Shown here piece by piece: positions 15,938-55,574 of a stretch of 64,000 nucleotides of DNA. This stretch comes from an uncultured Chthonomonas sp. GTDB lineage: Bacteria; Armatimonadota; Chthonomonadetes; Chthonomonadales; Chthonomonadaceae. Where the stretch lies: contig CAIONQ010000170.1 of NCBI GenBank assembly GCA_903859705.1, forward strand, positions 1 through 64,000, in the 5' to 3' direction. The notes beneath the pieces were generated by a model that worked only from the letters and a program-made list of their open reading frames with translations, did no database searches and was not told where the DNA came from. A program made the translations under genes and the position numbers. The first letter of the stretch is position 1; each line of letters opens with the position of its first letter.

Positions 15938-15974
15938 GCTTATCTCCACTCGGCAATCCATGTGCCACTGTATA

Positions 15975-34139: not shown

Positions 34140-37100
34140 ATGTCGGATACGGTATCGGCAGATAACATGGCGTCTTCCGGACAGCCAGCCGATGTGCGTT
34201 TCGACCCCACGCTACTGAAGGGGTTCGTTACCGATTCGATTGCACATTGGAGCGCGGCGGTACCAGATAAACTGGCAATTGTTGCCCGTGGCGTAAAAAT
34301 TTCGTACCGGGAACTGCATCAACAAACCAACCAGATTGCGCGTGCACTGCAGAACCTGGGGATTGGCCCAGGCGTTAGAGCTTCTTTTGTGCTCACTCGC
34401 GGTCCACGTACAGTACTGCTGTTAATTGCGATTCTAAAAACTGGCGCAACATACGTACCTATCGATGCTTCGTCACCCCTAAATAGAATTCGTGATTGTA
34501 TCGAGGATGCCAACCCGGGAGTATTAATTGTTGAAGATGCTTCACAGTTTTCAGACGATATCGTTCCAAACTGTGCTGTTATTTCGCTCAATGATCTTTT
34601 TGCGCGGTCTACCGGCCTTGAGACCGATGACCTAACTAACGCTGCAGCGCTGTTAAAATCCGAAGCCCACGCCTACATAATATTTACATCTGGTTCAACT
34701 GGTAGACCGAAGGGTGTGCCAATATCTCACGCTGCGCTATCGAACTTCGTTGCTGGCAATCAAATAGAATGCATTCGAGTTCAGCACGATGACGTAGTTT
34801 TTCAGGGTTTCTCTCCCGCCTCAGATGGCCACCATGAAGAAATTTGGCCAACCTTTGCAGCGGGTGGAACTCTTGCGGTGGCAACTGCAAAAGAGGTCTA
34901 CTCTGGTATAGACCTGGGTGCGTTCTTAAACGATTTTCATGTTACGATTGTTTCGTGTGCACCAACCCTTCTCTCAATGCTAGAGGAGGATGTTCCTACT
35001 CTCAAGAGGATACTCTTTGGGGCAGAGAATTTGCCTGCCGCTCTGGTAAACCGGTGGTGGACAAAAAACCGCGAGGTGCTCAATACATATGGGCCAACAG
35101 AGGCCACCGTAGGAGCAACCTTCTCATTCAGTAAGCCAGGCGAGGCGATTACCATCGGCAAGCCGCTTCCTAATTACTTCTGCTATGTGTTGGATGAGCA
35201 GTTAAATGTGGTGCCAGAGGGTGCGGAAGGTGAGCTTTGTATCTCCGGTGTTGGCCTTTCTCCCGGGTATATGGGCCGAGATGACCTTACTGCTGAGAAG
35301 TTTCTCGATAACCCGCATGCAATAGCTGGCACATTTACGGATAAGTTGTATCGTACTGGCGACCGTGCACGCATTGATGCTAACGGCAACATTGTATGGC
35401 TCGGCCGAATCGATGGCCAGATTAAGATACGGGGACATCGAATTGAGCTCAGCGAGATAGAGAGCTGCCTTGCAGCATGCCCCGGTGTGCAATCTGGAGT
35501 AGTTTCGGTTCGAGATACTGAAGCCGGCGATAAAATGCTGGCTGCACTCATTGTTGTACGAGATCCTGAAGATTTCGATATAAGCGCAGTACTGATGCAG
35601 ATGCGAGATAATCTGCCTGCGCACATGATTCCTGCTGTCTTCGAGCACGTAGAGCGCATTCCGCGGCTACCATCTGGCAAAGTCGATCGCGCTGCGTGTC
35701 AACTACTGCGTGGTGCAATATTCAGAATTGAGCGGGAGATTGTTCCGGCCCAAACGGAAAATGAACAGCTTGTTATCGATACCTGGAAAGAGCTGTTTGG
35801 TATCGAAGAGATTTCAGCAACAGACGATTTCTTTCGCGATCTCGGCGGCTACTCGCTGCTTGCATCCCGCTTTATAAGCAAGATGCGCACGCATCGTGTC
35901 TTCGCGCGAGTGTCTGTATTGGAACTCTACGAGAATCCCAGCGTGCGCGGTTTTGCTGCAATGCTGGATAACCAGGTTGAGTCTGAGCACAAAATTCCGG
36001 ATTTTCACCCGGTTTCCCGCTCAACTTATATGGCTGCAAAGTTCTGGCAGGCAATCGGGATACTCATTCTCTTTGCAATCCAGGGTTTTTTCTGGTTGGG
36101 GCCAATTCTCGCCGCAATCTATCTGTCGGCAGAAATTGGCCATCACGACTATATCGCACTCATACTTGGGTTGGCGCTGCATGCCATCTCTGTACCGCTT
36201 CTACTTGGGCTTGTAATTGCACTTAAGTGGATAGTTGTGGGCAGAACAAAGCCCGGAAGCTATCCATTGTGGGGCAGTACCTATGTGCGCTGGTGGTTTG
36301 TTAACCGGCTAATTAGTATTGCTCCTGTAACTCATATTACAGGCACTCCGCTGGCATCTGTGTACTTACGTTGCCTTGGCGCGCGCGTTGGCAAAAATGT
36401 ACTCATCGAATCACTTGAGATAGACTGCCCGGATTTGTTGGACATTGGTAACGATTGCAGTCTGGAAAACTCATCCTGGATTCACGCGGCCGAAGTGGCA
36501 TATGGCCAGCTGCACCTCCGGTCAGTAAAAATCGAAGATGGATGCTCGATTGGTGTGCGGGCCGGGCTCTCTGGCGGTGCAACAATGCAGAGAGGTTCCA
36601 GCTTGCGTGACCTCACATGTATCCGTGCCGGGATCTCAGTGCCGGCAGGTGAAGAGTGGCAGGGGAGTATCGCCCGCAAGGCCGAAACACGCATGCTGCC
36701 GGAATATGATCCTGCCAAGCAGCCTTCGCAAGGCAAGCTATTAACCTATGCTTTGATACAAGTGTTTCTGGTTATTGTTTTGGCAATGTTGGAAGCTGTG
36801 CCATTTGTTTCAGTGGCATTTACACTTTACAACTCCAGCAAAGTTTTCCTCGCGTATTTGTGGGAGCCAGTTTATGCTATGGCTCTTGTATCGGCTGCTG
36901 CGGTTCAGGTGCTACTGGTAAAGTGGGCAATAATTGGGCGGTTGAAACCTGGCACTTACGACTATCCCGGGTTTACCTGGCTACGCAAATGGTTCTCTGA
37001 GAAGCATCTCGAGCTATGTAGCCCACTGATAGTGCCTCTGTACGATTCCCTTTTCACGCGCCCATGGTGTATTGCACTCGGAATGAAGTGCGGGCCGCGG

Positions 37101-38171
37101 TGCGAAATTGCGTTGCCGCGCAGGATGCCATATGATCTGGTTGAGATGGGGGCCGAGAGCTTCCTCGCCAGCGAAGTAAGCATTGGCCGGCCAATTCGGC
37201 GAAATGGAAAGATTTTTCTGGAACGTACCATCGTTGGAACGCGGGCTTTTCTTGGCAACGATTCAGTAGTGCCCCAGGGCTGCCACGTTCCAGATGAATT
37301 TCTGCTGGGTGTACTGTCAGTTTGCCCATCAAATGATCAAGTAAAGGCGTCTGAAAATGGCCATGATCAGGCCTGGCTTGGCTCACCAGCATTTCGGATG
37401 CCAAATCGCCAGGTAATGGATTCTTTTGATCCAACACAAACATATAAACCTACCACAAGCCTGTATTTACAGCGATTGATGCACGAAACGGCAAGAGTGG
37501 TACTGCCAGGTTTATGTCAGTTGGTTGTTGCATCTCTCCTGGTTGAAGGTTTCGTGCTGATCTGGAACGAGCACACGCTAACAGCCGCTGTGCTTGCAGT
37601 GCCGTTACTTTATCTGCTTGGTGCGTTTATGGGCGCCGGGATATGCTGGCTTTCGAAAAAGCTATTTATTGGTACATACAGACCAACCATACAACCGTTG
37701 TGGAGCCAGTTTGTATGGAAAACCGAGACACACTCGGCGATATTGCATGATTTTGGTGCTCCGCTATTCATCACTACCATTATCGGTACTCCCTATGTAA
37801 GCGCATTTATGAGGTTTTTGGGGTGTGCTGTTGGCGACCGGGCATTCATAAACTCTACGGACTGGACTGAGAGTGATCTCATTTCGATAGGTGAGGATGC
37901 TGCCATCAATGCTAACGCGCCGCTTCAGGCTCACCTGTTTGAAGATCGTGTTATGAAGGTTGGCCCCATCAAGGTAGGAGATCGCTGCAGCGTGGGAAAC
38001 TACTCTGTAATTCTGTGTGAGTCAGAACTGAAAAATGATGCCCATGTGGGGCACTTGTCGCTCGTTATGAAGGGTGAAACGATACCTTCACACACGTTCT
38101 GGGCGGGTTCACCTGCACAGGCATGCGATGATGTTGATCTTGTTCAGGAAACTTTTCCAACACAAGTCTGA
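34140..38171 (+). CDS. Pls/PosA-type single-module NRPS with membrane C-terminus
   Basis: A 1343-residue membrane synthetase. The adenylation domain (about 25-530) has FTSGSTGRPKGV, NTYGPTEATVGA, YRTGDRARI and GHRIELSEIE, plus the closing PRLPSGKVDR lysine. D229 in SPASDGHHEEIW aligns with the Asp that holds the alpha-amino group, so an amino acid is the likely substrate. A carrier domain follows with phosphopantetheine Ser S572 (DLGGYSLLASR). There is no condensation or thioesterase domain; instead residues 620-1343 alternate transmembrane helices with left-handed-helix-like (hexapeptide) segments, as in epsilon-poly-L-lysine synthetase and PosA relatives. Those make amino-acid homopolymers or short peptides. 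Single gene, no NRPS partner nearby. Confidence 0.9.
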   Translation: MSDTVSADNMASSGQPADVRFDPTLLKGFVTDSIAHWSAAVPDKLAIVARGVKISYRELHQQTNQIARALQNLGIGPGVRASFVLTRGPRTVLLLIAILKTGATYVPIDASSPLNRIRDCIEDANPGVLIVEDASQFSDDIVPNCAVISLNDLFARSTGLETDDLTNAAALLKSEAHAYIIFTSGSTGRPKGVPISHAALSNFVAGNQIECIRVQHDDVVFQGFSPASDGHHEEIWPTFAAGGTLAVATAKEVYSGIDLGAFLNDFHVTIVSCAPTLLSMLEEDVPTLKRILFGAENLPAALVNRWWTKNREVLNTYGPTEATVGATFSFSKPGEAITIGKPLPNYFCYVLDEQLNVVPEGAEGELCISGVGLSPGYMGRDDLTAEKFLDNPHAIAGTFTDKLYRTGDRARIDANGNIVWLGRIDGQIKIRGHRIELSEIESCLAACPGVQSGVVSVRDTEAGDKMLAALIVVRDPEDFDISAVLMQMRDNLPAHMIPAVFEHVERIPRLPSGKVDRAACQLLRGAIFRIEREIVPAQTENEQLVIDTWKELFGIEEISATDDFFRDLGGYSLLASRFISKMRTHRVFARVSVLELYENPSVRGFAAMLDNQVESEHKIPDFHPVSRSTYMAAKFWQAIGILILFAIQGFFWLGPILAAIYLSAEIGHHDYIALILGLALHAISVPLLLGLVIALKWIVVGRTKPGSYPLWGSTYVRWWFVNRLISIAPVTHITGTPLASVYLRCLGARVGKNVLIESLEIDCPDLLDIGNDCSLENSSWIHAAEVAYGQLHLRSVKIEDGCSIGVRAGLSGGATMQRGSSLRDLTCIRAGISVPAGEEWQGSIARKAETRMLPEYDPAKQPSQGKLLTYALIQVFLVIVLAMLEAVPFVSVAFTLYNSSKVFLAYLWEPVYAMALVSAAAVQVLLVKWAIIGRLKPGTYDYPGFTWLRKWFSEKHLELCSPLIVPLYDSLFTRPWCIALGMKCGPRCEIALPRRMPYDLVEMGAESFLASEVSIGRPIRRNGKIFLERTIVGTRAFLGNDSVVPQGCHVPDEFLLGVLSVCPSNDQVKASENGHDQAWLGSPAFRMPNRQVMDSFDPTQTYKPTTSLYLQRLMHETARVVLPGLCQLVVASLLVEGFVLIWNEHTLTAAVLAVPLLYLLGAFMGAGICWLSKKLFIGTYRPTIQPLWSQFVWKTETHSAILHDFGAPLFITTIIGTPYVSAFMRFLGCAVGDRAFINSTDWTESDLISIGEDAAINANAPLQAHLFEDRVMKVGPIKVGDRCSVGNYSVILCESELKNDAHVGHLSLVMKGETIPSHTFWAGSPAQACDDVDLVQETFPTQV

Positions 38172-38398: not shown

Positions 38399-39280
38399 AT
38401 GCGATCCAAATTCTTACGTGAAAATTTAACCGGCTACGGCTTCATTGCCCCCTGGCTCATCGGGTTCCTGCTCTTTACGAGTTTCCCCTTTCTCTCCAGC
38501 ATCTATCTGTCTTTCACACGATACAACATCGTTACTCCTCCCGTTTGGGTGGGGGGGCAGAACTACAAGATGTTGCTACATGATGACCCGCAGTTCCATA
38601 CTGCACTTTGGGTTACGCTTCGCTTCGCCGCAGTGTCTGTTCCACTTGGAATAGTGTGTGGCGTAGCTCTGGCACTTCTGCTCAATCAGAACGTGCGCGG
38701 CCTCAGCATCTACCGCACCATCTTCTTTCTGCCTTCTATTGTGCCTACCGTTGCAACAGCAACTATCTTTTTGTGGTTGCTTAACCCTGAGATAGGCCTT
38801 GTGAACGGAATGTTGCACAAGATTGGGATTGAAGGTCCCGCATGGCTTTTGGATCCGAAATGGGCTCCGTGGAGCTTGATAATGATGTCGCTATGGGGTG
38901 TAGGCGGAAGCATGGTTATATACCTAGCTGGCCTTAAGGACATCCCTGCGTATCTCTATGAAGCAGCTCTGCTGGATGGTGCAAATCCTGTTCAGCGCCT
39001 TCGCCATGTGACTATCCCGATGCTGACGCCGGTTATCTTCTTTAACTTGATTATGGGAGTAATCGGTGCATTCCAGTACTTTACGGAAGCCTATGTGATG
39101 ACAAAGGGTGGGCCAGAGGACTCCACGCTTTATTATGCCCTGTATCTCTTCCAAAGAGCCTGGCGTTACCTGGACATGGGATATGCCAGTGCACTTGCCT
39201 GGGTTTTGTTCGCAGTAATCATGACTATTAATATCGTTCTCTTCCGGTCTCAGAAGAAGTGGGTGCACTATGGCAGCTGA
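38399..39280 (+). CDS. Sugar ABC transporter permease, MalF/UgpA type
   Basis: A 293-residue inner-membrane permease with six predicted helices. The ATPase-coupling EAA loop is visible as YEAALLDGANPVQRLRHVTIPML. The N-terminus (GFIAPWLIGFLLF) is typical of the first permease of CUT1 carbohydrate importers. It overlaps the next gene by 11 bases. Preceded by a good promoter but only a weak ribosome binding site. With its two neighbours it forms an importer for oligosaccharides, fitting the many exported glycosidases in the window. Confidence 0.93.
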   Translation: MRSKFLRENLTGYGFIAPWLIGFLLFTSFPFLSSIYLSFTRYNIVTPPVWVGGQNYKMLLHDDPQFHTALWVTLRFAAVSVPLGIVCGVALALLLNQNVRGLSIYRTIFFLPSIVPTVATATIFLWLLNPEIGLVNGMLHKIGIEGPAWLLDPKWAPWSLIMMSLWGVGGSMVIYLAGLKDIPAYLYEAALLDGANPVQRLRHVTIPMLTPVIFFNLIMGVIGAFQYFTEAYVMTKGGPEDSTLYYALYLFQRAWRYLDMGYASALAWVLFAVIMTINIVLFRSQKKWVHYGS

Positions 39281-40628
39281 CGGATTCGACCCCGGACGAA
39301 GGAAAGCAATAAGAACGGTGGTTGGGGCGGCCGCTTCTGTTGCTGCCGCTGGCTTTGTGCTTCAGCCCACAAGTTTCTTTTTTCATACCAAAAGGCGTAA
39401 AGTGCGCTTCTGGCACGAATTGGGCGGCATCTGGATGGAGCCTATGATGGCCACTCTGGAGGCGTTCAATCGCAGCCAGGATACTTATGAGATGGAACCA
39501 CTGCTGATGTCCGATACGGAGGCAGACAGTAAGCTGATGCTTTCGACTGTCGGCGGTGACCCACCTGATGTCGTGCTTGTATGGTCGCAGATCACCAGCG
39601 TTTGGGCACAGAGTGGCCTGATTCAGCCTCTGGACCCGTTTATGTCAACTGATGAGATGCGCAGGCTCAAAGAGACTGCGTATCCGGTTATTCGCAAGAG
39701 TGGGTGGTACAACGGGCATCTTTATGGGATTGTAGAAGGTTTCGACCTGTGGGTCTGCTATTATAGGCCAGATCACTTCCGAGAGGCCGGCCTTAATCCT
39801 GATCACTTCCCTGAGACTCTGGAAGACTTGCTGGATGTGGCGGAGAAGCTACATAAAGTGGAAAAAGGTGGAGATATATCCCGCCTTGGCTTCCTGCCCA
39901 AAGATTTCCAGACAGTAGCACCTCTGTTTGGCGGTGGATTCTTTGACGAAAAAACCGGAAAGCTAACGTTGAACACGCCTGAAAACTTAAAGGCGTTGCA
40001 CTTTCTTGCAGATACGCGCAAGCGATTCGGATTTGACAAGGTCGTAAAGTTTGAATCAGGGCTGGCAAGTGACGACGGCGCATCCTGGTCGTTCATGCAC
40101 GATAAGTATTCGATTATCGCGGATGGTGAATGGCGCGTGGAGCAGCTACATAGATATGCACCTCAGATTGAATACCGGACGGCAACCGTTCCGCCCCCGC
40201 GTGGTGGCAAACCCAAGGCAAGCTTCTCTATGACGAACTTTCTCGTGATGCCAAAGGGAGCTCGAGAGCCGAAGGGTGGCTGGGAGTTTATCCGGTTCTG
40301 GAGCGGTATTCACGATCCGATTCGCGCAGCAGAGTTTTATCCTATATTCGGTTGGATGCCTCTGTCGCCACTCACTGCGGAAGCACCTGTTTACCAGAAG
40401 TGGCTGAAAGAAGTGCCGCAGTATAGAACATTCCTTGATGTTGCGGCTAGCGACAATATTTGCATCACGCCTCCCGTTCCTTACCAGACCTACCTTATGG
40501 ACCAGGTTCAGAAAACAAACGATTACGTAACGCGCGGTACCAAAACTCCCGAAGACGCAATCGTGTGGCTGGAAACGGAAGTAGCGCACGAACTAAAGCG
40601 CAGAAAGGACCTGGGCTATGTCGACTGA
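39270..40628 (+). CDS. Extracellular solute-binding protein of the sugar ABC transporter, Tat-type export
   Basis: A 452-residue family 1 solute-binding protein that captures the sugar outside the membrane. The N-terminus carries a twin-arginine-like signal (GRRKAIRTVVG then a hydrophobic run) and no lipobox Cys, so it may stay membrane-anchored or be released. Fold marks include VRFWHELGGIW, GGDPPDVVLVW, YGIVEGFDLWVCYYRPDHF and the late PVPYQTYLMDQ. It sits between the two permease genes, overlapping each by 11 bases, which is an unusual order. Confidence 0.9.
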   Translation: MAADGFDPGRRKAIRTVVGAAASVAAAGFVLQPTSFFFHTKRRKVRFWHELGGIWMEPMMATLEAFNRSQDTYEMEPLLMSDTEADSKLMLSTVGGDPPDVVLVWSQITSVWAQSGLIQPLDPFMSTDEMRRLKETAYPVIRKSGWYNGHLYGIVEGFDLWVCYYRPDHFREAGLNPDHFPETLEDLLDVAEKLHKVEKGGDISRLGFLPKDFQTVAPLFGGGFFDEKTGKLTLNTPENLKALHFLADTRKRFGFDKVVKFESGLASDDGASWSFMHDKYSIIADGEWRVEQLHRYAPQIEYRTATVPPPRGGKPKASFSMTNFLVMPKGAREPKGGWEFIRFWSGIHDPIRAAEFYPIFGWMPLSPLTAEAPVYQKWLKEVPQYRTFLDVAASDNICITPPVPYQTYLMDQVQKTNDYVTRGTKTPEDAIVWLETEVAHELKRRKDLGYVD

Positions 40629-41472
40629 TAACCGGTCCAGGCTGCCAAAGCTGTTTACGCACATCGCTCTTATCCTGCTCGCTGTGCCCGCCCTGTTGCC
40701 GCTTATATGGATGGTAGCAACGTCACTTAAGGCGGATACTCAGATCTTCGGATCTGAAACTGCGGGCGTAACTATGAAAACCATTGTTCCACACCCATTT
40801 GTGTGGAAGAACTACCCTGAGGCTTTGCACGCCATCCCAATGGTAATGTACCTTCGGAATACGCTTAAGCTGTGCCTGTTTAATGTTGTGGGTGCTGTTC
40901 TATCCAGCGCAATGGTTGCTTATGGATTTGCGAGGTTGGAGTTCAAGGGCAAGGATGTCCTGTTTATGGTCATGATTGCGACTATGGCTTTGCCGGCCCA
41001 GGTAACAATGATCCCCGTTTTCGTGGTGTTTCGCTGGCTTGGTTGGTATGGAACCTACCTTCCGCTCACCGTGCCGGCATTTTTTGGTAATCCATTCTTC
41101 ATTTTTCTATTAACCCAGTTTTACAAAACCTTGCCCGGGGACTTGAGCGAAGCCGCACGCATGGATGGTGCCAATGAATGGACAATCTTTGCACGTGTAA
41201 TGCTGCCGCTTGCCAGGCCAGCGCTAACAACATGTGCTCTCTTTCAATTTTTGTGGGTGTGGAATGACTTTTTTGGACCATTGTTGTACATAAATGACGT
41301 CCACAAGTACACACTTGCGTATGGATTACAGCAGTTTCTGTCAAATCATGGGGCAGAATGGTCCCGACTTATGGCAGCATCAACCCTGTTCATAATGCCA
41401 ATTCTCATTCTGTTCTTCTTTGCGCAACGTAGTTTCATCGAGGGAATTGCAACAACTGGCGGTAAAAACTGA
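40618..41472 (+). CDS. Sugar ABC transporter permease, MalG/UgpE type
   Basis: A 284-residue partner permease with six helices and the EAA loop LSEAARMDGANEWTIFARVMLPLARP. The N-terminus (LLPLIWMVATSLK) and the ending FIEGIATTGGKN are classical for the second CUT1 permease. Translation is probably coupled to the binding protein by the 11-base overlap. No ATPase gene lies in the window, so the importer presumably uses a shared MsmK/UgpC-type ATPase encoded elsewhere. Confidence 0.93.
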   Translation: MSTDNRSRLPKLFTHIALILLAVPALLPLIWMVATSLKADTQIFGSETAGVTMKTIVPHPFVWKNYPEALHAIPMVMYLRNTLKLCLFNVVGAVLSSAMVAYGFARLEFKGKDVLFMVMIATMALPAQVTMIPVFVVFRWLGWYGTYLPLTVPAFFGNPFFIFLLTQFYKTLPGDLSEAARMDGANEWTIFARVMLPLARPALTTCALFQFLWVWNDFFGPLLYINDVHKYTLAYGLQQFLSNHGAEWSRLMAASTLFIMPILILFFFAQRSFIEGIATTGGKN

Positions 41473-42985: not shown

Positions 42986-45283
42986 ATGGTGATCAGATCG
43001 CTTGTCTGTAAGACAGTTTTGGCCGTGTCTGCGGTCAGTATATTTTGCGGGGTTGAGGCCATGGCGCAAACACCCGTACGTGACATTGCCTTCGAACAGG
43101 AGTATCACGAAGAGCATGCTCTTGCAACTTCAGATGCCAATGACGTGCGCTGCATCGCAGTATCAAAAGATGGCACCGTTTGGGCAGGAAGTGCGGATGG
43201 ACTTCATGTACTGAAGTCCGGAATCTGGAGCGCACCAATTGGCGGCACGGACCTTGGCCCGGTGCACAGCATTACCATAGATAGATCTGGCAAGGTCTGG
43301 ATAGGCTCCTGGAATGGCCTGTTCTGGATTGATCCAGCAGACCAATCTGTGCATCCTACAGAGCTCAAAGGCTCAGCAATTGCCTGTGTGCGTGCATGCA
43401 GCACCCCTGAGGGTGGTGAACAGATACTCGCCGCTGGGCCTACCGGCATCTGGCGTATATCCAGTGCATTAAAATTTGTTAGAGTATTTGGCACATCACA
43501 AACGAACATCCGGGCACTTCGGTTGGATGAGCACGGTGAAGTCTGGGTGGGTACTGCCAGCGGCCTGTATCACATACCCGCCGACATTAAGCCAACATTG
43601 GGTGATTCATCTATAAGATATTCACACCCAAACGCAGTACTAAGCAGCAATATCTCCGGCTTCGCGACTTTGCCCGGTGGCAAGTTTGCAATCTCCTCAA
43701 CGGGTGGACTAGATTTTTACCAGGGAGACCATCGTGTAGGCTCGCTAACTGCACGCGATGGTATGCCGTACCGCATTGCGCGGTCCGTATTCTCTGATGC
43801 TCAGGATCGCATCTGGTGCGCAACTCCAATAGGTGTGGTTCGATATGATCATGGCAAATGGAGCCTTCGGCACAGCCGTCGCTGGCTTTTGAGCGATGAT
43901 GTTCGCGACGTAGCCGTTGATGCTACTGGTACTGCCTGGGTGGCAACTGCAGGCGGCGTGGATGCTATTAAGTCTCGCCCAATGACACTGGCGCAAAAAG
44001 CACAGTACTACCTGGAAAACCTCCGCAAACGCCACCTGCGAGAGCCCGGCCTGGTTGGCCCTGCTGTACTTGTAACGCCGGGGGATCTTTCGAAGAGCTT
44101 CATCGAGGACGATGACAACGATGGCGAACATACGGGTATGTACCTGGCCATGGAGTCTATGCGTTATGCGGTAACGCACGATCCTGCAGCAAGAGCGAAT
44201 GCAAAAGTTGCATTTCATGCCCTGCTGGCACTTCAGCGCGCCACCGGCACGAGCCACTTCATCGCGAGATCGATTATGCCTGTTGACGGGCTGGCCCCGC
44301 GCCATGAGGTAGATAGAACGTTTACACCGCGCGAGATAGCAGAAGCGCGAAGGACTGATCCGCGTGCTAAGTCTATCGAAAAGCGTTGGCTGCCAACAGC
44401 AGATGGCAAGTGGCTATGGAAGCGGGATGCCAGCTCAGACGAAGTGGATGGCCATATGTTTGGCTACGGCAGTTACTTTGATCTGGCTGCAGATGATGAG
44501 GAGAAAAAACTGGTTGCAGACCAGGTAGATCGAATAATTGGTGGCATCGTGGATCACGGTTATTTACTGGTTGATATCGATGGCCGAGGTACACAGTGGG
44601 GCAACTGGTCACCACGCAGCCTGATAGGCGATCCGAACTGGCATGAAGAGGCCGCAGGCAACGCGGTAGAAATGATCTCTTACCTTGGTGTGGCATACCA
44701 TATGACGCACAAAGCAAAGTATATCGAATCTGCCAACCTCTTAATCAAGAAGTACGGGTATGACACGTTGATGACCCGAACCATCTTCGATACGCCTTCG
44801 GAACGCACCCATATCGAAGATGAACTGCTAACAATCACGTATCCCAACCTCATGAATCACCTGATCTTTCCAACACTTCAATCCAAGGCAAAGCTCAGCA
44901 TTCAGAACTGGCACAAAGCCTGTGCAAAAGATGGCATTCCGTTCTATGACTTTGTGTACAACCGGTACTCTGGCCAAACTGGCCCGCTGGACCGTGCAGT
45001 AACTACACTTCGAGAATGGCCACTATCTCACATCGAATGGACCGTAGATAATTCTAAGCGCGATGATGTTCGCCGAGACCTTACTCCTGGATTAGAAGAA
45101 GGCTTCCTGGATCGACTGGTGCCGCGAACCGAGATGGGGCTATGTATGTGGGATCAGGAGCCCTATAAGGCAGTAATTGGCAATGGAGGGCAGCGAGAGG
45201 ATCGTCAAAACGATTGGCTGCTTGCATATTGGATGGGGCGGTACTACGGATTGCTTACTGGTGACGATCAACATGCGGAATAG
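42986..45283 (+). CDS. Secreted beta-propeller plus helical-domain protein, paralog of the convergent gene
   Basis: A 765-residue exported protein. The signal peptide ends near AMAQT (residue 28). Residues 50-335 contain repeated propeller blades of the two-component-regulator type (GTVWAGSADGLHVL, GKVWIGSWNGLFWI, GEVWVGTASGLYHI, DRIWCATPIGVVRY, GTAWVATAGGVDAI). From MTLAQKAQYY (about 332) the rest is helical and shared with the neighbour: DNDG-TGMYLAMESMRYA, DASSDEVDGHMFGY, WGNWSPRSL, NSKRDDV and WLLAYWMGRYYGLL. No histidine-kinase module is present. The helical domain could be a glycosidase-type alpha barrel, but no catalytic motif was recognised. Confidence 0.8.
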   Translation: MVIRSLVCKTVLAVSAVSIFCGVEAMAQTPVRDIAFEQEYHEEHALATSDANDVRCIAVSKDGTVWAGSADGLHVLKSGIWSAPIGGTDLGPVHSITIDRSGKVWIGSWNGLFWIDPADQSVHPTELKGSAIACVRACSTPEGGEQILAAGPTGIWRISSALKFVRVFGTSQTNIRALRLDEHGEVWVGTASGLYHIPADIKPTLGDSSIRYSHPNAVLSSNISGFATLPGGKFAISSTGGLDFYQGDHRVGSLTARDGMPYRIARSVFSDAQDRIWCATPIGVVRYDHGKWSLRHSRRWLLSDDVRDVAVDATGTAWVATAGGVDAIKSRPMTLAQKAQYYLENLRKRHLREPGLVGPAVLVTPGDLSKSFIEDDDNDGEHTGMYLAMESMRYAVTHDPAARANAKVAFHALLALQRATGTSHFIARSIMPVDGLAPRHEVDRTFTPREIAEARRTDPRAKSIEKRWLPTADGKWLWKRDASSDEVDGHMFGYGSYFDLAADDEEKKLVADQVDRIIGGIVDHGYLLVDIDGRGTQWGNWSPRSLIGDPNWHEEAAGNAVEMISYLGVAYHMTHKAKYIESANLLIKKYGYDTLMTRTIFDTPSERTHIEDELLTITYPNLMNHLIFPTLQSKAKLSIQNWHKACAKDGIPFYDFVYNRYSGQTGPLDRAVTTLREWPLSHIEWTVDNSKRDDVRRDLTPGLEEGFLDRLVPRTEMGLCMWDQEPYKAVIGNGGQREDRQNDWLLAYWMGRYYGLLTGDDQHAE

Positions 45284-45312
45284 GCCGTAATCTGATGAGG
45301 CACCCGGCATAG

Positions 45313-45358
45313 ATTAATAAGGGGGGTGGCAGATTACTCTGCCACCCCCCTTATTAAT
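45313..45358. terminator. Perfect 21-bp bidirectional terminator
   Basis: Arms 45313-45333 and 45338-45358 are fully complementary with a four-base loop (TTAC); the core is GGGGGGTGGCAGA, with AT-rich ends on both sides. It lies between the two convergent paralogs and should serve both. Confidence 0.92.
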
Positions 45359-45375
45359 GTCCACTCTACTTATGG

Positions 45376-47364
45376 TTACTTCCCGGCAGGCAAGTATCCA
45401 TAGTAAACACCTACCCAGTAGCCAAGCAGCCAGGCCGCGCCATCATCCAGCACTTCACCATCGCCACCACCATCTGCATCAAAGGGATTGCCGTTCCAGC
45501 GATGCAGCGCGCGCTCGGAAATTGGAAGAACGCGCGTTAGTTCACGCGCAGAGTGAAGACCACGACCTGATTTAAACTGCACGTCATCTCTCTTGCTGTT
45601 AACCATTCTCCACTGTACGCGGTCCCACGGCCAATCCTGAAGTGATTCCTCTGCCTCATCTGGTGCACAGGGTGCACCCGTAAGTCCGCCGTACATGTAG
45701 TTGTAGAATGGGCTGCGCTCAAATTTCAGAGATTGTAGCACGCCAGTATCTTCCCATGTGCCACGCAGGCTCTGAAGCAGGATTTTGCGCCGGGAGGCGT
45801 CCGTTTCCAACGTTAGAAGCGTATGGTAGTTGATGTACGCCATCTCATCGTCTGAGTGGTTGATGTTCTGCCACTCTGCCGGCGTACGTGTTCGCCATGC
45901 CAGCGTATTGAGCAGGTAATGATGCTGATTAATCAGCATTTCATACAATTTCTCATATTTTGCATCACCTGTAAAGTGGAACGTTGCCTTTAAGTAGGCC
46001 ATCATCTGCATGGAGTTGAGCGCGCGCTGATCCGCCCATGCAGGGTCATCATTGATTGTCTCGGGAGCAAACACGCCCCATCGGGTGCGCTTTCCCGTAT
46101 GGCCAATCAGGTTAAACCCACCCGCAATAATGTTATCGGTAACTCGCTGACAGGTGGCTGCAATCTTCTTCTTCTGTTCTGGAGTAGCGGCCAGGTCAAA
46201 GAAGGTAGTCCATGCAAAGTAGTGGCCATCTAGTTCGTCTGAGCTGGTATCGCCCTTACACCACACATGCGGATCGACTTTAGACCGGAACCAAATCTTC
46301 TCGCCTTCGCCGTCAACACGAACTGTTTCATCAGCGCTGAAGCCGTCAACGCCGTTCTTGAGCTCCTCGTCAGTTACAACTGCACGCGCCGGGAAACCAG
46401 AAATACCGGTAAGGCGCTCTAGCTCAAGCATCGCATTAAGAGCCTGCCAGCCATCCTTGCGAGCGGCCTCGTCTTTGGTGGCTGCGTAACGATATGCCAT
46501 TGCTGCAACGTACATGCCATTCCACAGGCCATCGTTGTCGCTTGCCTCAAATCGGCCACTGGCAAGATCAGATGGGTCTTTTAGATGGCGCTCGTTTATG
46601 TAGCCGCGGCGGTTGTTATACTTCTGAGTTATGTCGTTAAAGTACGTGGCCTTCTGTGCAAGGGTTATTTGCTTTTCTTCAATGCCTGCAAATCCAGCAT
46701 TGGTGTTAAGCCATATTCGCCCCGTACTGTCGCCCCAGATGTGCGTTACGTTATTGCCTGGCAGCCAGCGCTTGCCAGCAAAGTACCGAAATCGCCCATT
46801 GCGCATGCGCCATGCGCCATTTGCGGTTCCCGCCCATAGGTCGCCATTTGGTGCCGTGTACAGGCAACGGAGAACCTCTACAGGCATTCCGTCGCGGCGA
46901 TCAATGCCATGCCACCAATCATTGCCATCGGTAAAGAACAGTCCGAAATTGGTGCCAGCAAGGATGTTACCATCTTTATCGCCAGCTACACAGGTTACAA
47001 CGGTATCTACCGGTACGGTAGGCTGCAATGTCTGCAGCCATTTGGGGTGAACAATTGGGCCAAATCCCTGCCCGTTCTTGCCAGTCTTAAAGCCACCCTT
47101 ATCGGTTATTACCCATAGCGATCCGTTGCGGCCACGAGCTGCAGAAAGGATCTGTGCACCGGCGGGCAGTTTGCTTCGGTCTACGAAGTCAAAGTTGGTA
47201 ATGGGCTCATTGAAGCCCGCAGGCATTGGCGTGCCTGGTGCGTACCGTGTTGCTAATAGCTGAGGATAGGTAGTAGAAGTAGGGCCAGCTAGTGCTGGCG
47301 CTCCTACAGTCAGCGCTGCAGCCGCGGCACTAATTGCCACGGCAGCAGACACAAGTGATTTCAT
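45376..47364 (-). CDS. Secreted beta-propeller plus helical-domain protein (second paralog)
   Basis: A 662-residue exported protein built like its convergent neighbour but with fewer blades. Signal peptide about 1-26 (AAAALTVGAPALAG). Propeller blades are GSLWVITDKGGFK, GNILAGTNFGLFF, GDLWAGTANGAWR and GRIWLNTNAGFAG. The helical part begins ITLAQKATYF and shares DNDG-NGMYVAAMAYRYA, DTSSDELDGHYFAW, GVFAPETI, NSKRDDV and WLLGYWVGVYYGYL. AGGAG ten bases upstream supports the ATG. The gene starts 49 bp from the sialidase-like gene's stop and may end that minus-strand run. Confidence 0.8.
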   Translation of the reverse strand: MKSLVSAAVAISAAAAALTVGAPALAGPTSTTYPQLLATRYAPGTPMPAGFNEPITNFDFVDRSKLPAGAQILSAARGRNGSLWVITDKGGFKTGKNGQGFGPIVHPKWLQTLQPTVPVDTVVTCVAGDKDGNILAGTNFGLFFTDGNDWWHGIDRRDGMPVEVLRCLYTAPNGDLWAGTANGAWRMRNGRFRYFAGKRWLPGNNVTHIWGDSTGRIWLNTNAGFAGIEEKQITLAQKATYFNDITQKYNNRRGYINERHLKDPSDLASGRFEASDNDGLWNGMYVAAMAYRYAATKDEAARKDGWQALNAMLELERLTGISGFPARAVVTDEELKNGVDGFSADETVRVDGEGEKIWFRSKVDPHVWCKGDTSSDELDGHYFAWTTFFDLAATPEQKKKIAATCQRVTDNIIAGGFNLIGHTGKRTRWGVFAPETINDDPAWADQRALNSMQMMAYLKATFHFTGDAKYEKLYEMLINQHHYLLNTLAWRTRTPAEWQNINHSDDEMAYINYHTLLTLETDASRRKILLQSLRGTWEDTGVLQSLKFERSPFYNYMYGGLTGAPCAPDEAEESLQDWPWDRVQWRMVNSKRDDVQFKSGRGLHSARELTRVLPISERALHRWNGNPFDADGGGDGEVLDDGAAWLLGYWVGVYYGYLPAGK

Positions 47365-47412: not shown

Positions 47413-48756
47413 CTATTTAGCCTGAATAGGCTGCCTGCCATTGGGATCGAGAATCCACGCTTCGTTGATCTCTACATGCTTGATGCTTTCGCCTGAAGAT
47501 GGCTCGGAAGCGGACGACTTGCGCATGGATATGGAGTAGCTCATGTGAATTGAGCCATCCTTCGCCTGGATAATGGATGGGTAAGAGTACGATCCAAATG
47601 TTTTTGGATCTGTATCATGCTCTACCCATTTCTTGTAGAGCCATGTTCGGCCCTCATCTTCAGAAACGGATATGGCGAGGCTGTGCCGTCCGTCCTCTGT
47701 ATCGTTGTTTAGCATAAGCCAGCGGCCACTTTTAAGAATAATGGCTTCAACGCCAGCTCCGGGGTCTGGAAGCTCAATGTCGTGAGCAATGCTCCATGTT
47801 TTGCCTTCATCCGACGATTCCGACAGCTGAACTCGTTGAGGTGGCGGGCCATTGTCACGCATAAAGGCCAACAGCGTTCCATCTTTTCGTTGCAAAATAG
47901 ATGGCTGAACGCCACTCTGGCTGATTATCGGGGCACTTACTTGCCAGGTCTCACCCAGGTCATCGGTGTAGCCCACCAGCGAAATGTCATAAAAATCGGA
48001 GTAAAGCGGCACAAGCAGGCGTTGCCCACCGCCCTTAAGTTGGATAAGGGTAGGGTGTGCACGCGTCATCCAACCAAGCCGCATGGCCAGCTTGTCTTTT
48101 GCCTTAGCCAGTACTCCTGCCATCAATATGCGTACTTTTGCTGCGCGGGCGGGCTCGGCCTTTTGCAGCACTGGCTCCCACACGCCCGGAATATCCCGAA
48201 CCAGAGCTTCCGAAAACTCTGGCCCTGGTTTGAGCAGCATCAAGTCGCTCTTATCCCACTTAACGGCCGTGCCCGGTTTTGAAAAAGAGGAGCTAATTTT
48301 AACGCGCGTAATTGCACTTTCCCACTGATTATTTAAAATAGTAGAGTGCATCAGCCACAGGCGCTTTAAAGGGTCCACCCAGATGCATGGATTAGTATCA
48401 GGAAATCCCGGAGTATCCGAAATTACCATCTCCTTTTCCCAAATATGAGAGCCTTTTGTAAGGCGCGAGCCCATGATTGCCACATCATCTGCTGTGCGTT
48501 CACCTGATCCACGGTACCAGCAAGTAAACAGGCCGCCACCGGGCATTTCTACAACGCAGCTGCCATGATTGTGCCGGTGTTCAGGCGTGAATATTAGCTC
48601 GCCTTTGTACATCGGAGTAGCAGTTTTCATCGAGGTGCCCCCTTTCGTATGCGGCTGCGGAGTGCCGGGCTTGGCTAGAGTTGGGGCTGCACACAGAGCC
48701 GCAAGCGTTAGTGCGAATGCTGTGGGGCACATATCAAAAACACGACGTGTCCTCAT
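47413..48756 (-). CDS. Secreted sialidase-fold (BNR/Asp-box) exo-glycosidase
   Basis: A 447-residue exported six-bladed propeller. The signal peptide covers about 1-28 (ALTLAALCAAPTLAK). Three Asp-boxes are visible: TDDLGETW, SDEGKTW and SEDEGRTW. HRHNHGSCVVEMPGGGLFTCWYRGSGER resembles the first arginine-bearing blade of sialidase-like proteins; its piece CWYRGSGER holds the likely active-site Arg. In this bacterial group such proteins often act on plant or environmental sugars rather than sialic acid. AGGAG precedes the start by 11 bases, overlapping the end of the upstream membrane-protein gene (gap six bases), so the two are coupled. Confidence 0.82.
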   Translation of the reverse strand: MRTRRVFDMCPTAFALTLAALCAAPTLAKPGTPQPHTKGGTSMKTATPMYKGELIFTPEHRHNHGSCVVEMPGGGLFTCWYRGSGERTADDVAIMGSRLTKGSHIWEKEMVISDTPGFPDTNPCIWVDPLKRLWLMHSTILNNQWESAITRVKISSSFSKPGTAVKWDKSDLMLLKPGPEFSEALVRDIPGVWEPVLQKAEPARAAKVRILMAGVLAKAKDKLAMRLGWMTRAHPTLIQLKGGGQRLLVPLYSDFYDISLVGYTDDLGETWQVSAPIISQSGVQPSILQRKDGTLLAFMRDNGPPPQRVQLSESSDEGKTWSIAHDIELPDPGAGVEAIILKSGRWLMLNNDTEDGRHSLAISVSEDEGRTWLYKKWVEHDTDPKTFGSYSYPSIIQAKDGSIHMSYSISMRKSSASEPSSGESIKHVEINEAWILDPNGRQPIQAK

Positions 48757-48762
48757 GTGGAA

Positions 48763-50334
48763 TTACTCTCCTGTGGGCTTTGCCTTCGGCCCAAATCGGT
48801 AATGGTGTCCGGCATAGCCGGCAAACTGGTCGCCATACATGGCGCGAACTCCGGCCCAGCAAACCACTGGGACAACAGCAAACAGCAGCGCACCAAAAGC
48901 CCATGCTCTGCGTAATAGTGGCTCATATCCTGCGCTTTGAAGCACTCGCTGTTCGTGTGTTTCGTTGGCCCACAGCAGGCACATCAGGCTAACAAGTAAG
49001 CCGTTGACAAATATGGTGCCTTCCGTTATAAGGCGAACCTTGTCGAAGGAAACCAGAGCCTTCATGAAATTGGCAATTATCATCCACCAGTTGAGCGCCA
49101 AAAACAGCAGTTGCGCTTTGCCCAGTGCCGATTGAGGGACTAGTGCGATGGGCTTGCGCAGGTGGCTGCGAATGAGCCAGATAAACGTTGCTGCCAGTAA
49201 AAAGTAGAACAGGTCAAACCAGCCAGCGGTGGTAAGAAAATACATTTGTGGCTTAATTGCCTTGCTATCCGTCCAATCCGTAACCTGCTTCCACATGTTC
49301 AGGTAGGTTAACAGCAGCATCAAAAAGGCAACCATAAAACCGTTGTAAAACCCTGGTACGGCGGGTTCATCAACGGCAATAGGCGCCCTCTTAAAGAGAG
49401 GTATAAAAGCAACAGCTAGTGCAACACCATTCATAAATCCGTAGGATTGCTCCAGCACGCTATGCCAGTTGGTATCCAATCCTGATTTAATTTCGGTAAG
49501 TTTGAACAGTACAGCCAGCGCAAATGCTGCTCCACCAAGTACGCCAGTTATGGCGCCGCTCAGCACGGCTCCTCTAACACCAGTGCGCCATAAATAAACA
49601 AAAAGCGCAATCGTAAGCCCAAGATTTCCCACCCAGCTCTCGCTCTTGTTGGGTGCCATGGACACATGCAGGCCAACCTTAAGTATGAGGAAACCTATCC
49701 ACCATCCCGCAGCACACGCTATGATAAGTCGTTCAGCCCAGTCCAATTTTCGCCGGATTATCCCGCGTAATGGGATGAGGATAATGGTAAGCAGGGCAGA
49801 CATCCAGTCTGTATCAAACCAATCCATAGGGCTGTGTTTATGCCACTTCGGAACAGTATCAATGAAGTGCGCCTCAAACTGGTTTTCTGCCCACCATGCA
49901 ATAAATAGGATAATGAACGGAACCACAAACTGAGATAACTTTTCTCTACTCAGGTATGCTGGCAGGGCCGTGCCCATGCCGCCCACAGCTCCCCACAGAA
50001 AGCCAACGACAAACAGGCAGTAAAATCCATAAAGTACTGAACCAGAATGGCCAGAGTGCGTATATGCAATCAGCACCATGTAGGCCATGCAGGCGCCAAT
50101 TGCCCAGCCTGCAGCACCAAAAACGCCGAAATAAGCTATTCTTCGCACCCAGTCATCGCGTTTGGAAATTAGTACAGCAGCCATTGCTGCCAGCGCCCCA
50201 GGTAGTGCCGCGCCCCACTGGTGGCCATAATTGCCGCGTATTCCCCAACCAATGGAGAGAGATAACCCCACAAATAGAAGCGTCTGCCATCGCAACGGAG
50301 TGGCAGACGCATTGCTGGTAGAACCTGAAACCAT
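48763..50334 (-). CDS. Polytopic membrane protein of unknown function
   Basis: A 523-residue protein with about 12-13 predicted transmembrane helices. Distinctive conserved-looking loops are GWGIRGNYGHQWGAALPGA near the N-terminus, FLWGAVGGMGTALPAY, and AWWAENQFEAHF. It is not a recognisable MFS, ABC or APC transporter. ATG 50334 is chosen for GAGAGGAA upstream; the in-frame extension to 50361 is unlikely. It sits between the secreted polygalacturonase and the sialidase-like gene on the same strand, six bases from the latter, so a role in uptake or membrane handling of released sugars is plausible but unproven. Confidence 0.7.
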   Translation of the reverse strand: MVSGSTSNASATPLRWQTLLFVGLSLSIGWGIRGNYGHQWGAALPGALAAMAAVLISKRDDWVRRIAYFGVFGAAGWAIGACMAYMVLIAYTHSGHSGSVLYGFYCLFVVGFLWGAVGGMGTALPAYLSREKLSQFVVPFIILFIAWWAENQFEAHFIDTVPKWHKHSPMDWFDTDWMSALLTIILIPLRGIIRRKLDWAERLIIACAAGWWIGFLILKVGLHVSMAPNKSESWVGNLGLTIALFVYLWRTGVRGAVLSGAITGVLGGAAFALAVLFKLTEIKSGLDTNWHSVLEQSYGFMNGVALAVAFIPLFKRAPIAVDEPAVPGFYNGFMVAFLMLLLTYLNMWKQVTDWTDSKAIKPQMYFLTTAGWFDLFYFLLAATFIWLIRSHLRKPIALVPQSALGKAQLLFLALNWWMIIANFMKALVSFDKVRLITEGTIFVNGLLVSLMCLLWANETHEQRVLQSAGYEPLLRRAWAFGALLFAVVPVVCWAGVRAMYGDQFAGYAGHHYRFGPKAKPTGE

Positions 50335-50431
50335 ACCAGAATTCCTCTCAAGCACACACAAGACCAGCTGGCCACTAATGCAAACTCAAGTTCTCGTGTG
50401 TATCTGGAGAGTCCTCTGTGATCGACCTAGT

Positions 50432-52012
50432 TTATGACACTTTGTGACCGTAAATTCGCAGATCTGACTGTTTTGTGCCTTTTAAAAGCACACTTTTTGT
50501 CAGGTTTCCATCAGGTGCGCAATCTATAAATTCTACAATCCCACATGCGTCCAGCACCACAGAGGGTTGGCCATCAGTAGTGCTCCATATCGGCACAACC
50601 TCAAATACAGTGTTGGCAACGTCCTGGCAGTATATCATTACCGATTTGCCAGATGGCAGTGTATTACTCGGTGGCTTCTGGTTCCAATCTACTTTCCTGT
50701 CGTCTGGCACGGCCAATCGATACAGGTTAGGGGTAGTTGTAATGTCTATGTGGTCCATTCTCACGTTTCGAAGATGGCGTAAATACAAGCCGTCGCTCGG
50801 CAGTGGTCCAAACATGTCATCGTCGGGGTAGTCCGCAATGCTCTCTGGCACTGGTATCTCTAATTTACGAAGCATTCCGGCACCACTGTATGAAATCTGA
50901 ATGTGGGATAGCCGAACATCTTCAATCATGCTTCCCGGTATGCCCGCAAGTGTGCAAACCAGGGATGCATTGCGGGCAACGATGTTGGATATGGCAACAT
51001 GGGCAAGCGAGCCTGGCACTGCGGGGCTCAGATCTCGCCCGCGGTTTCCTAACCGCATGTAGAATGGGCTTCGCACTCCATCCATGGCGAGGTTACTCAC
51101 CGTAACACCGCTGATGTTCGCGCCATCTACAGACTCGAGTGCAACTCCGCCAGATGCAGGGCCTGCCTGTGGAAACCCACCCATTACACAATTACTAACG
51201 GAGATTTGCCGAAAGTCGCTTCCAGATTCGGTACCGAGTTTAAAACAGTAACAGGTTGTTCCAAGGTAGCAATTTGTAACGGTAACGTTTTCGCAGGGGC
51301 GATGCACACCCAGTGAGAAGCTGGATTTCAGGACAATTGCATCATCGCGCGACTCTATGTGGCAGTTCGAGATGCTGACATTGGAACAGGAATCGGGGTC
51401 TATCCCATCTGCATAGCCATTCAGTATGGTTACGCCATCAATGGTTACGTGGTTGCACCCAAGCATGCTAATGTTGTAATTGGGTGCATTGCGAATGGTT
51501 ATGCCCTTAACAGAAAAGAAGTTGCAATTGCGGGCAGCAATTGGCTTTGGGCCATGGCGTTTTGTAAAGTTTGCATCTATTTCGCCATCGCCAGATATGG
51601 AGGCATGTGTGAGGCCTTCACACTGGATGAGCGCATGATTGAAAAACGAGGTTTCCTGATCGGCAGCGTTCTTGAACTTCAGGGTTTCGGCAGGATCGTA
51701 ACCGGATCTATCTGGCTTGCCAAGCAGAATGGCACCTGCATCAAGGTGCAATGTGCAGTTGGAGCTCATGTGGATGGTACCAGTTAAGTACTTTCCGCCG
51801 GGAACTACTACTGTGCCGCCCCCTGCGCGCGAGCATGCCCGGATGGTGGCGTTTATGGCAACGGTGTCATCGTGCATGCCATCGCCAGCCGCGCCCGTAA
51901 GCCGCACATTAAATGAAGTAGAAAAGCTCTGACACTCGGCTTTTCCGCTGGGGAAAATCCCCCCGATTACTGCCAGCACCATGGCTGGTATCAGCCCGAC
52001 AGATACCTTCAT
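50432..52012 (-). CDS. Secreted GH28 polygalacturonase-family glycosidase
   Basis: A 526-residue right-handed beta-helix enzyme that hydrolyses galacturonan or rhamnogalacturonan backbones of pectin. Signal peptide about 1-27. FNVRLTGAAGDGMHDDTVAI is the usual N-terminal start of the fold. The catalytic region is GYADGIDPDSCSN (first acidic residues), SRDDAIVLKSS (paired Asp) and GTESGSDF, matching the NxD/DD/G-H-G pattern except that the GHG His is replaced by GTESG, as in exo-acting or divergent members. Length is on the large side, with a C-terminal extra beta domain. First gene of the GH28, membrane protein, sialidase run. Confidence 0.9.
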   Translation of the reverse strand: MKVSVGLIPAMVLAVIGGIFPSGKAECQSFSTSFNVRLTGAAGDGMHDDTVAINATIRACSRAGGGTVVVPGGKYLTGTIHMSSNCTLHLDAGAILLGKPDRSGYDPAETLKFKNAADQETSFFNHALIQCEGLTHASISGDGEIDANFTKRHGPKPIAARNCNFFSVKGITIRNAPNYNISMLGCNHVTIDGVTILNGYADGIDPDSCSNVSISNCHIESRDDAIVLKSSFSLGVHRPCENVTVTNCYLGTTCYCFKLGTESGSDFRQISVSNCVMGGFPQAGPASGGVALESVDGANISGVTVSNLAMDGVRSPFYMRLGNRGRDLSPAVPGSLAHVAISNIVARNASLVCTLAGIPGSMIEDVRLSHIQISYSGAGMLRKLEIPVPESIADYPDDDMFGPLPSDGLYLRHLRNVRMDHIDITTTPNLYRLAVPDDRKVDWNQKPPSNTLPSGKSVMIYCQDVANTVFEVVPIWSTTDGQPSVVLDACGIVEFIDCAPDGNLTKSVLLKGTKQSDLRIYGHKVS

Positions 52013-52120: not shown

Positions 52121-53419
52121 TTAGCCTATTATGCCGCGGAAGCTCTGTTCGCCGCCGGTGTAGCCGGGGAACAGTTTTGCGAGGTCTTTCACGCCCATGT
52201 GCCGGCTGGCAACTTCCCCGAAAACCGCGCGGAAGTCGGTTGTGAGGTTTAGATCGCGGCCTTCATACAGCTTATCTGTGGTTAGGCCGGGCCAGTCGCC
52301 ATAAACCTTGCCACCCTTTACCGGGCCACCCATGGCAAAGTAGCATGTGGCATGCCCATGGTCAGTACCGCCCGTGCCGTTCTGTTTAACCGTTCTGCCA
52401 AACTCGCTCATGGTAATTACTACCACGTCGCTCATTCGGTCGCCAAGGTCATAGTAGAAAGCAGAAAGCGCCTGGCCAACTTCACGCAATCGGTTTGCGA
52501 GGTTGCCTGCAGAAGGAGTGCCATTTTGCACCTGGTTTGCGTGTGTATCCCATCCGCCAACATCGGTAAATGCGATTTCAACGCCAATTCCAGATTTGAT
52601 GAGCTGGGCAATCTGCTTGAAGCTCTCACCAAGCTTACCTGCCGGGTAAACGGCCGATCTCTCTGGCGTATATGTTGCCGGGTTAATCTTTTTCAGCGCT
52701 TTCAGGGCATCAAAGCTCTCTTTGCCGGTTCCGTGCAGCACATCGCCAACTGCCTGATCATAAAGTGCTTCAAAGCCACCGGCGGTGCTGCTTGCGCTCG
52801 CACCATTAGAACGGCCTCTGGCCGCAATCTCCTGAATTCCAAAAGATCGCAGATCTGGAATGGCAAGGGCTCCTGCTTCGCCCTGCAGGCTTCGAGGTAG
52901 GCCTCCGCCAATGGCAACCGTACGGAAGGGGCTGTTTTTTGCGGCGCGGTCTTCCGGGCACATCATGGCAGTTCTCGCCAGCCAACCATCCTGCACAACT
53001 TTGTTATCTGGCGAACCACTCTCCATATAATCCATGGCATCGAAGTGGGAGCGTGAGTTGCTGGGAGATCCGCATGCGTGTACCGCCGCAAGGTGACCCT
53101 CTTTGTATATCTTTGCCAATGGGGCCAGAGATGGGTGAAGGCCAAACATGCCGTCAAGATCCACCACTTCACTCTGTGGGATCGCAATATTGGGACGAAC
53201 CTTATACAACTCCGGCTCACCATGCGGAACCACTATTGAGAGGCCATCTGCGGCTCCGCGCATAAAGAGGCATACCAGGGTTTTCTTTCGAGCTCCACCG
53301 GGTGCATCTTGCGCAAGTGCTGCCCGTTGAAGAAAGGTTGGACCGAGAGCTGGCCCCAGCCCTACCGAGAAGATACCTACAGCCCCGTTTTTTATCAGCA
53401 TTCGGCGAGTAATAGACAT
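52121..53419 (-). CDS. DUF1501 secreted protein, partner of DUF1800
   Basis: A 432-residue Tat-exported protein (SITRRMLIKNGAVG signal, then hydrophobic). DUF1501 marks are CLFMRGAADGLSIVVPHGE, GGWDTHANQVQNG and TMSEFGRTVKQNGTGGTDHGHAT, the last giving the alkaline-phosphatase-fold Asp/His metal ligands. It is of a different subtype from the DUF1501 gene at 14510-15937: this one has the TDHGHAT site, the other RDHNP. Five bases separate it from the DUF1800 stop upstream, so the two are co-translated. The family has no proven reaction; export and surface action are likely. Confidence 0.9.
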   Translation of the reverse strand: MSITRRMLIKNGAVGIFSVGLGPALGPTFLQRAALAQDAPGGARKKTLVCLFMRGAADGLSIVVPHGEPELYKVRPNIAIPQSEVVDLDGMFGLHPSLAPLAKIYKEGHLAAVHACGSPSNSRSHFDAMDYMESGSPDNKVVQDGWLARTAMMCPEDRAAKNSPFRTVAIGGGLPRSLQGEAGALAIPDLRSFGIQEIAARGRSNGASASSTAGGFEALYDQAVGDVLHGTGKESFDALKALKKINPATYTPERSAVYPAGKLGESFKQIAQLIKSGIGVEIAFTDVGGWDTHANQVQNGTPSAGNLANRLREVGQALSAFYYDLGDRMSDVVVITMSEFGRTVKQNGTGGTDHGHATCYFAMGGPVKGGKVYGDWPGLTTDKLYEGRDLNLTTDFRAVFGEVASRHMGVKDLAKLFPGYTGGEQSFRGIIG

Positions 53420-53424
53420 TGCCG

Positions 53425-55434: not shown

Positions 55435-55574
55435 CTGGAAATCTCCCGTAAAGGGCCAACAGGTTGGGCAATTCGTGTTTCCCAGTGCTTCTCTGTGGCG
55501 AGTAAATACAATCTGTGCAGACGCACACCATCCCACATTAGTTCACACTTATTTTTGGTACCCAAGCCAGATGC

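Follow-up and report, generated by a model that had tools for sequence, protein, structure and literature searches.

What is the function of a secreted protein in which a propeller of the sensor type is joined to a helical domain that sequence libraries do not name? The question is raised by two genes in a window of 64,000 nucleotides from an uncultured Chthonomonas sp. (GCA_903859705.1, contig CAIONQ010000170.1, positions 1–64,000 of the forward strand; the window refers to this whole stretch). The genes, here called P1 (42986..45283, + strand, 765 aa) and P2 (45376..47364, − strand, 662 aa), face each other with their ends separated by 92 bp. A sequence-only reading had described them as a convergent pair with the same order of parts, with blades of the two-component-regulator type and with four motifs common to the helical parts; both open reading frames (ORFs) are confirmed, Pfam Reg_prop is significant in both proteins, and all four motifs are found in P1 and in P2. 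The common order is signal peptide, Reg_prop propeller and helical domain, the latter being about 430 residues long instead of the roughly 350 first estimated. As argued below, P1 and P2 are probably secreted enzymes that cleave glycans by hydrolysis.

The helical domain spans residues 335–761 in P1 (43988..45268, + strand) and 234–662 in P2 (45379..46665, − strand), and gives nothing above cut-off in Pfam or NCBIfam in either protein; 90 relatives compared with the same libraries yield scattered weak matches only. A search of PDB sequences with a 90-member profile of the domain found no relative, PHROGs and PADLOC gave no match, and no close relative was found in viral contigs. A viral structure library returned a single match at E < 0.001, to an unnamed entry, and two named glucosidases at E > 0.1. 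Measured against Pfam, NCBIfam and PDB sequences, the family is thus new, in agreement with the earlier remark that the propeller is fused to a domain that could not be named, and no paper on such a fusion was found in the literature.

The fold, on the other hand, is known. An AlphaFold2 model of the P2 domain, based on an alignment of the 90 relatives, has a predicted local distance difference test score (pLDDT) of 95.1 and a predicted template-modelling score (pTM) of 0.94, and shows twelve main helices arranged as a barrel of six hairpins, together with small β elements, i.e., the arrangement that defines the (α/α)6 six-hairpin superfamily. Foldseek with this toroid model returned nine matches in the PDB at E ≤ 0.001, each of the (α/α)6 fold class, and the nearest folds (GH9, GH146, cellobiose and GlcNAc 2-epimerases, GH76, and GH88) are nearly all carbohydrate-active. 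The best E value is 3e-4, with template-modelling (TM) scores of 0.3–0.5, sequence identities of 7–12%, and root-mean-square deviations (rmsd) mostly of 8–12 Å. The sequence-only reading had raised an (α/α)6 fold as a possibility, which the model and the fold search bear out, the searches having returned no full match to a known family. In profile–profile alignment with hhalign, the probabilities are 29% for GH127 (over the first hairpin), 9% for GH88, 3% for AGE and 0.6% for C5-epimerase, on a scale where known families compared with each other in the same test range from 0.2% to 86%. The signal for PF07944 (GH127) is weak but recurring, and is seen in 10 of the 90 relatives (best E = 8e-4). 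The toroid belongs to none of the families tested.

All 90 relatives share twelve identical residues: Lys19, Arg33, Asp57, Asp59, Arg108, Trp139, Ser155, Asp157, Trp210, Arg373, Asp375, and Tyr430 (P2-domain numbering, such as D57; adding 219 gives P2 numbering). The set, which includes four aspartates, corresponds to residues such as Asp377, Asp379, Arg428, Trp468, Ser483, Asp485, Trp538, Arg692, Asp694, and Tyr748 in P1, and Asp276, Asp278, Arg327, Asp376, Trp429, Arg592, Asp594, and Tyr649 in P2. In (α/α)6 enzymes such as GH9, GH15 and GH88, the active site lies at the starts of the inner helices and in the adjoining loops. Most conserved polar residues of the toroid sit just before or at the starts of inner helices 1 and 2 or in connecting loops, and helices 3 and 6 contribute one each; by secondary structure, Asp57, Asp59 and Asp157 map to the N-terminal ends of helices 1 and 2. 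Many of the invariant residues are thus, as aligned, where the fold places its active site. Because P1 and P2 both retain the whole invariant set, neither looks like a dead copy. At three near-invariant sites P1 deviates, with Asn219 replaced by Ile, Ser232 by Ala, and Asn267 by Leu.

Based on these features, the C-terminal toroid would be the catalytic part of both proteins. A cleft is predicted on the side at which the inner helices start, and may be lined by the invariant aspartates of the DND-G and SSD-E motifs and by loops carrying Arg108, TRWG and NSxRxD. The most likely chemistry would be hydrolysis of a glycosidic bond through an acid–base pair of aspartates. The N-terminal propeller is expected to hold or position the polymer and to take no part in signaling, given that it is not followed by a kinase or transmembrane domain. 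P1 and P2, which belong to different old subfamilies (see below), would for that reason most likely attack separate bonds in a single substrate, alongside the neighboring ATP-binding cassette (ABC) importer and a BNR_2 sialidase-like protein.

The propeller itself is readily recognized, with several blades above the Reg_prop (PF07494) cut-off of 20.4 (P1, E = 1.9e-14, 52.4 bits; P2, E = 8.5e-9, 35.0 bits). Putative signal peptides, assigned by eye, precede it at about residues 1–28 in P1 (42986..43069, + strand; MVIRSLVCKTVLAVSAVSIFCGVEAMAQ), where the model has an N-terminal helix, and at about residues 1–27 in P2 (47284..47364, − strand; MKSLVSAAVAISAAAAALTVGAPALAG). In the full-length model of P1 (pLDDT 93.9), the strand pattern corresponds to seven blades at residues 36–333 (43091..43984, + strand), with the toroid directly after, and the strand at residues 36–44 is likely to close blade 7. 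Foldseek places this propeller nearest to the periplasmic sensor of BT4663 (4a2m/4a2l), a heparin-sensing system, and to streptogramin lyase. P2 has fewer blades, about four (46669..47247, − strand), which align to blades 4–7 of P1. Across the relatives, the stretch ahead of the toroid can be as short as about 135 residues or exceed 500, and at least 13 changes between long and short propellers are placed on the tree, so that blade number appears evolutionarily loose. Four members (L089 4468–6087, L086 9569–11233, L107 6091–7725, and L078 2220–3896) have only about 135–147 residues before the toroid and no Reg_prop match; the propeller has possibly been lost or become degenerate there, or the start codon been misread. 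A Reg_prop search of the genome as a whole came out empty despite the matches in the window, a consequence of the 24-residue model failing at that threshold, and does not argue for absence. After the propeller, P1, P2, and ten architecturally diverse relatives showed no kinase, HAMP or transmembrane segment.

The sequence-only reading spoke of two paralogues; the genome carries four copies of the toroid domain. Within Armatimonadota the domain is present in 83 of 291 genomes (49 of 156 genera), and a scan of species genomes gave at least 519 loci. The best 80 of these fall in Armatimonadota, Bacteroidota, Acidobacteriota, Planctomycetota, Hydrogenedentota, Poribacteria, KSB1, Nitrospirota, Verrucomicrobiota, Lentisphaerota, and one Thermoproteales archaeon bin, where many loci are from metagenome bins, so that a phylum represented by one record may reflect a binning error. 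Same-strand groups of two or three family genes, often less than 100 bp apart, are present in 26 of 29 Bacteroidota loci, and two family genes also occur at one KSB1, one Acidobacteriota and one Hydrogenedentota locus. According to the tree, the members of one array belong to different clades. This repeated assembly of divergent members side by side suggests complementary specificities on one substrate. At two Bacteroidota loci, one ORF of about 1500 aa encodes two complete toroids (L073 11316–15839 and L074 11301–15752), and just upstream of each is an ORF of about 1400 aa with one toroid after some 980 residues.

The surroundings of the Bacteroidota arrays include genes for GH20 β-hexosaminidase, HGSNAT-like N-acetyltransferase, YdjC-like deacetylase, purple acid phosphatase, SusD, and TonB receptors. 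When loci with these genes within 2.5 kb of a family gene were compared with those beyond that distance, where 1.8 times as much sequence was covered, the counts were 7 versus 0 for GH20, 9 versus 1 for HGSNAT, 9 versus 1 for YdjC, and 10 versus 3 for BNR_2; BNR_2 genes occur near family members in four phyla. The neighbor association is strong for Bacteroidota and suggestive elsewhere. The GH20, HGSNAT-like, YdjC and SusD neighbors suggest a hexosamine-containing glycan as the substrate, a suggestion that is weaker for the present genome because the neighbors here include a pectin-type GH28.

How the pair arose bears on whether the two proteins may have separate roles. It had been proposed that they derive from a convergent duplication with loss of blades in one copy, and such a recent inverted duplication would account for the adjacency, the common architecture, and the clear homology of the toroids (37% identity over 424 aa, E = 1.5e-65, far above chance). 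The observation of fewer blades in P2 holds, but the duplication does not. In the tree, P1 is in a seven-bladed Armatimonadota clade whose sister group is formed by Bacteroidota genes, to which it is up to 41–42% identical, as compared with 37% to P2; P2 groups with the genome's two other copies in a separate short-propeller Armatimonadota clade, and short propellers are common to the wider P2 clade. An approximately unbiased (AU) test rejects, under the model used, a forced clade of P1, P2, and their sister-species orthologues (385 log-likelihood units lower, p-AU = 5.8e-5). A recent duplication is thereby very improbable, and P1 and P2 are members of separate old subfamilies and not duplicates of each other. 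Pairing in this orientation, for which a survey had been proposed, is restricted to this genus: a close convergent pair occurs in 2 of the 83 phylum genomes, this one and one other examined genome of the genus, and elsewhere the distant members form same-strand clusters.

With P1 and P2 as separate members of an enzyme-like family, the choice of chemistry can be considered. A polysaccharide lyase or uronyl epimerase, where invariant Arg, Tyr, His, and Asn near the cleft would neutralize the uronate and abstract a proton, could make use of the invariant Arg33, Arg108, Arg373, and Tyr430, and of the near-invariant His31, His162, and Tyr66. Weak C5-epim_C matches in three members, one weak alginate-lyase match (E = 0.0013), and the presence of the lyase 5noa among the Foldseek matches are in line with this. 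We nevertheless regard this alternative as unlikely, as hhalign gives C5-epimerases the low probability noted above, a hydrolase fits the four invariant aspartates at least equally well, and the GH20 of the Bacteroidota clusters requires no lyase partner. Less likely still is that the proteins are non-catalytic, with propeller and toroid binding sugar and a membrane partner reading their state. The best structural match of the propeller is indeed the heparin/heparan-sulphate sensor domain of BT4663, and the four copies in the genome and the tandem arrays of Bacteroidota could form a binding repertoire; yet twelve invariant, mostly polar or aromatic residues maintained over many phyla favor catalysis over variable binding, and the proteins have no kinase, HAMP or transmembrane domain that was found. 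Several points weigh against a glycan-cleaving hydrolase as well. The fold likeness, at the TM and rmsd values given above, is at the superfamily level only, so that the chemistry is unreadable from the fold, and only sequence and secondary structure underlie the proposed clustering of invariant residues in the cleft. Some of the near genes also served as seeds for the near/far profiles, and one genus supplies several of the loci. Outside Bacteroidota the neighbors are mostly unshared, no conserved operon across all phyla was seen when looked for, and BNR_2 is, by eye, not clearly enriched in other Armatimonadota. On balance, a glycan-cleaving enzyme in its hydrolase version ranks ahead of the lyase or epimerase and of pure binding, and the earlier guess that these might be glycan-binding enzymes can be restated as a glycan-active enzyme being likely. 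That a new family of glycoside hydrolases or lyases is defined by the toroid, with representatives in hundreds of species that usually bring their own Reg_prop substrate platform and act in sets of divergent members on a hexosamine-containing polymer, is a broader proposal that we put forward tentatively, as plausible but short of probable.

The two stop codons of P1 and P2 are separated by a perfect 21-bp inverted repeat (45313..45358), with arms at 45313–45333 and 45338–45358 that are 100% complementary around a 4-nt loop. Its folding energy is −46 kcal/mol on either strand (z about −7), better than in 200 of 200 shuffles, and the corresponding gap of the sister species contains another hairpin, which is imperfect (79% complementary). 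The perfection of the repeat, as first described, is confirmed; its role as a shared, probably bidirectional terminator is likely because of the strong hairpin and the sister-species counterpart, although there is no clean U-run.

Directly upstream of P2, after a 48-bp gap, is the BNR_2 sialidase-like propeller protein (47413..48756, − strand; Pfam BNR_2 E = 1.9e-41), preceded by a membrane protein of 532 aa with no Pfam match (48763–50361, − strand) and the pectin-type GH28 (50432–52012, − strand). With gaps of 70, 6, and 48 bp in the order GH28, membrane protein, BNR_2, P2, the run looks like one operon ending in P2. Upstream of P1 are the permease, solute-binding protein, and permease of the sugar-type ABC importer (38399..41472, + strand; Pfam BPD_transp_1, SBP_bac_8, BPD_transp_1). 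In the sister species (L035), where gene lengths were also compared, the gene order around P1/P2 and the importer matches, and the position of the membrane protein is taken by a 529-aa protein that likewise has no Pfam match (14925–16511). The gene directly upstream of the importer (34140–38171) encodes 1343 aa with, by eye, an adenylation-domain-like start, a carrier-like region, and repeated hexapeptide acyltransferase-like parts; the equivalent protein in L035 has 1356 aa. Further away are adjacent DUF1501 and DUF1800 genes (52121–55536; Pfam), a pair often found together in Planctomycetes-like bacteria, and, about 11 kb from P1/P2, a sulfatase with an N-sulphoglucosamine sulphohydrolase C-terminal domain (58190–59779), which adjoins a PAF-acetylhydrolase-like gene (57003–58190).

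None of the libraries searched has a model for this domain, which occurs at no fewer than 519 loci in some eleven phyla or candidate phyla. Should it prove catalytic, the carbohydrate-active enzymes would gain a sizeable group, and the propeller would be seen as part of an extracellular enzyme instead of a kinase-borne sensor. Clusters are present in cultured Dyadobacter and Spirosoma strains, which makes activity and substrate directly testable.

Among known systems, the GH127/GH146 β-L-arabinofuranosidases (PF07944) have in common with P1 and P2 the (α/α)6 toroid (Foldseek matches 6yqh, 5opj, and 8qf8) and an alignable first hairpin. Unlike these, the present family lacks a conserved cysteine for the Zn–Cys nucleophile site, the best Cys column among the 90 members being below 32%; neither P1 nor P2 matches PF07944 at E ≤ 10, and their toroid is joined to a propeller instead of the β-domains of GH127. 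Membership is rejected, as the match is below the Pfam cut-off and a Cys column for nucleophile or Zn binding is missing. The AGE-type 2-epimerases (PF07221) and GH88, GH9, and GH76 are similar in the six-hairpin helical barrel (TM 0.3–0.5), but differ in sequence (7–12% identity), GH9 and GH76 having been compared by fold only. Neither AGE (no Pfam match, hhalign 2.9%) nor GH88 (PF07470; no Pfam match, hhalign 8.7% over 32 columns of a heterogeneous GH88 alignment) can accommodate the family, and the same applies to D-glucuronyl C5-epimerase (PF06662), where P1 scores E = 0.098 and 12.6 bits against a cut-off of 23.3, and hhalign gives 0.6%. On the propeller side, PorZ (NF052228) shows a Reg_prop-type similarity, but at 36 bits against a cut-off of 260, and has no matched counterpart of the toroid. 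A two-component sensor kinase is not supported, as kinase, HAMP and transmembrane segments were not found in the proteins inspected. The second propeller, Y_Y_Y domain, membrane helix, and kinase of the Reg_prop periplasmic sensors in hybrid two-component systems (BT4663 and BT3049) were not found in P1 or P2. What the latter share with these sensors are the PF07494 blades, for which 4a2m and 3v9f are the closest structures, and what sets them apart is that a single propeller is fused to an enzyme-like domain.

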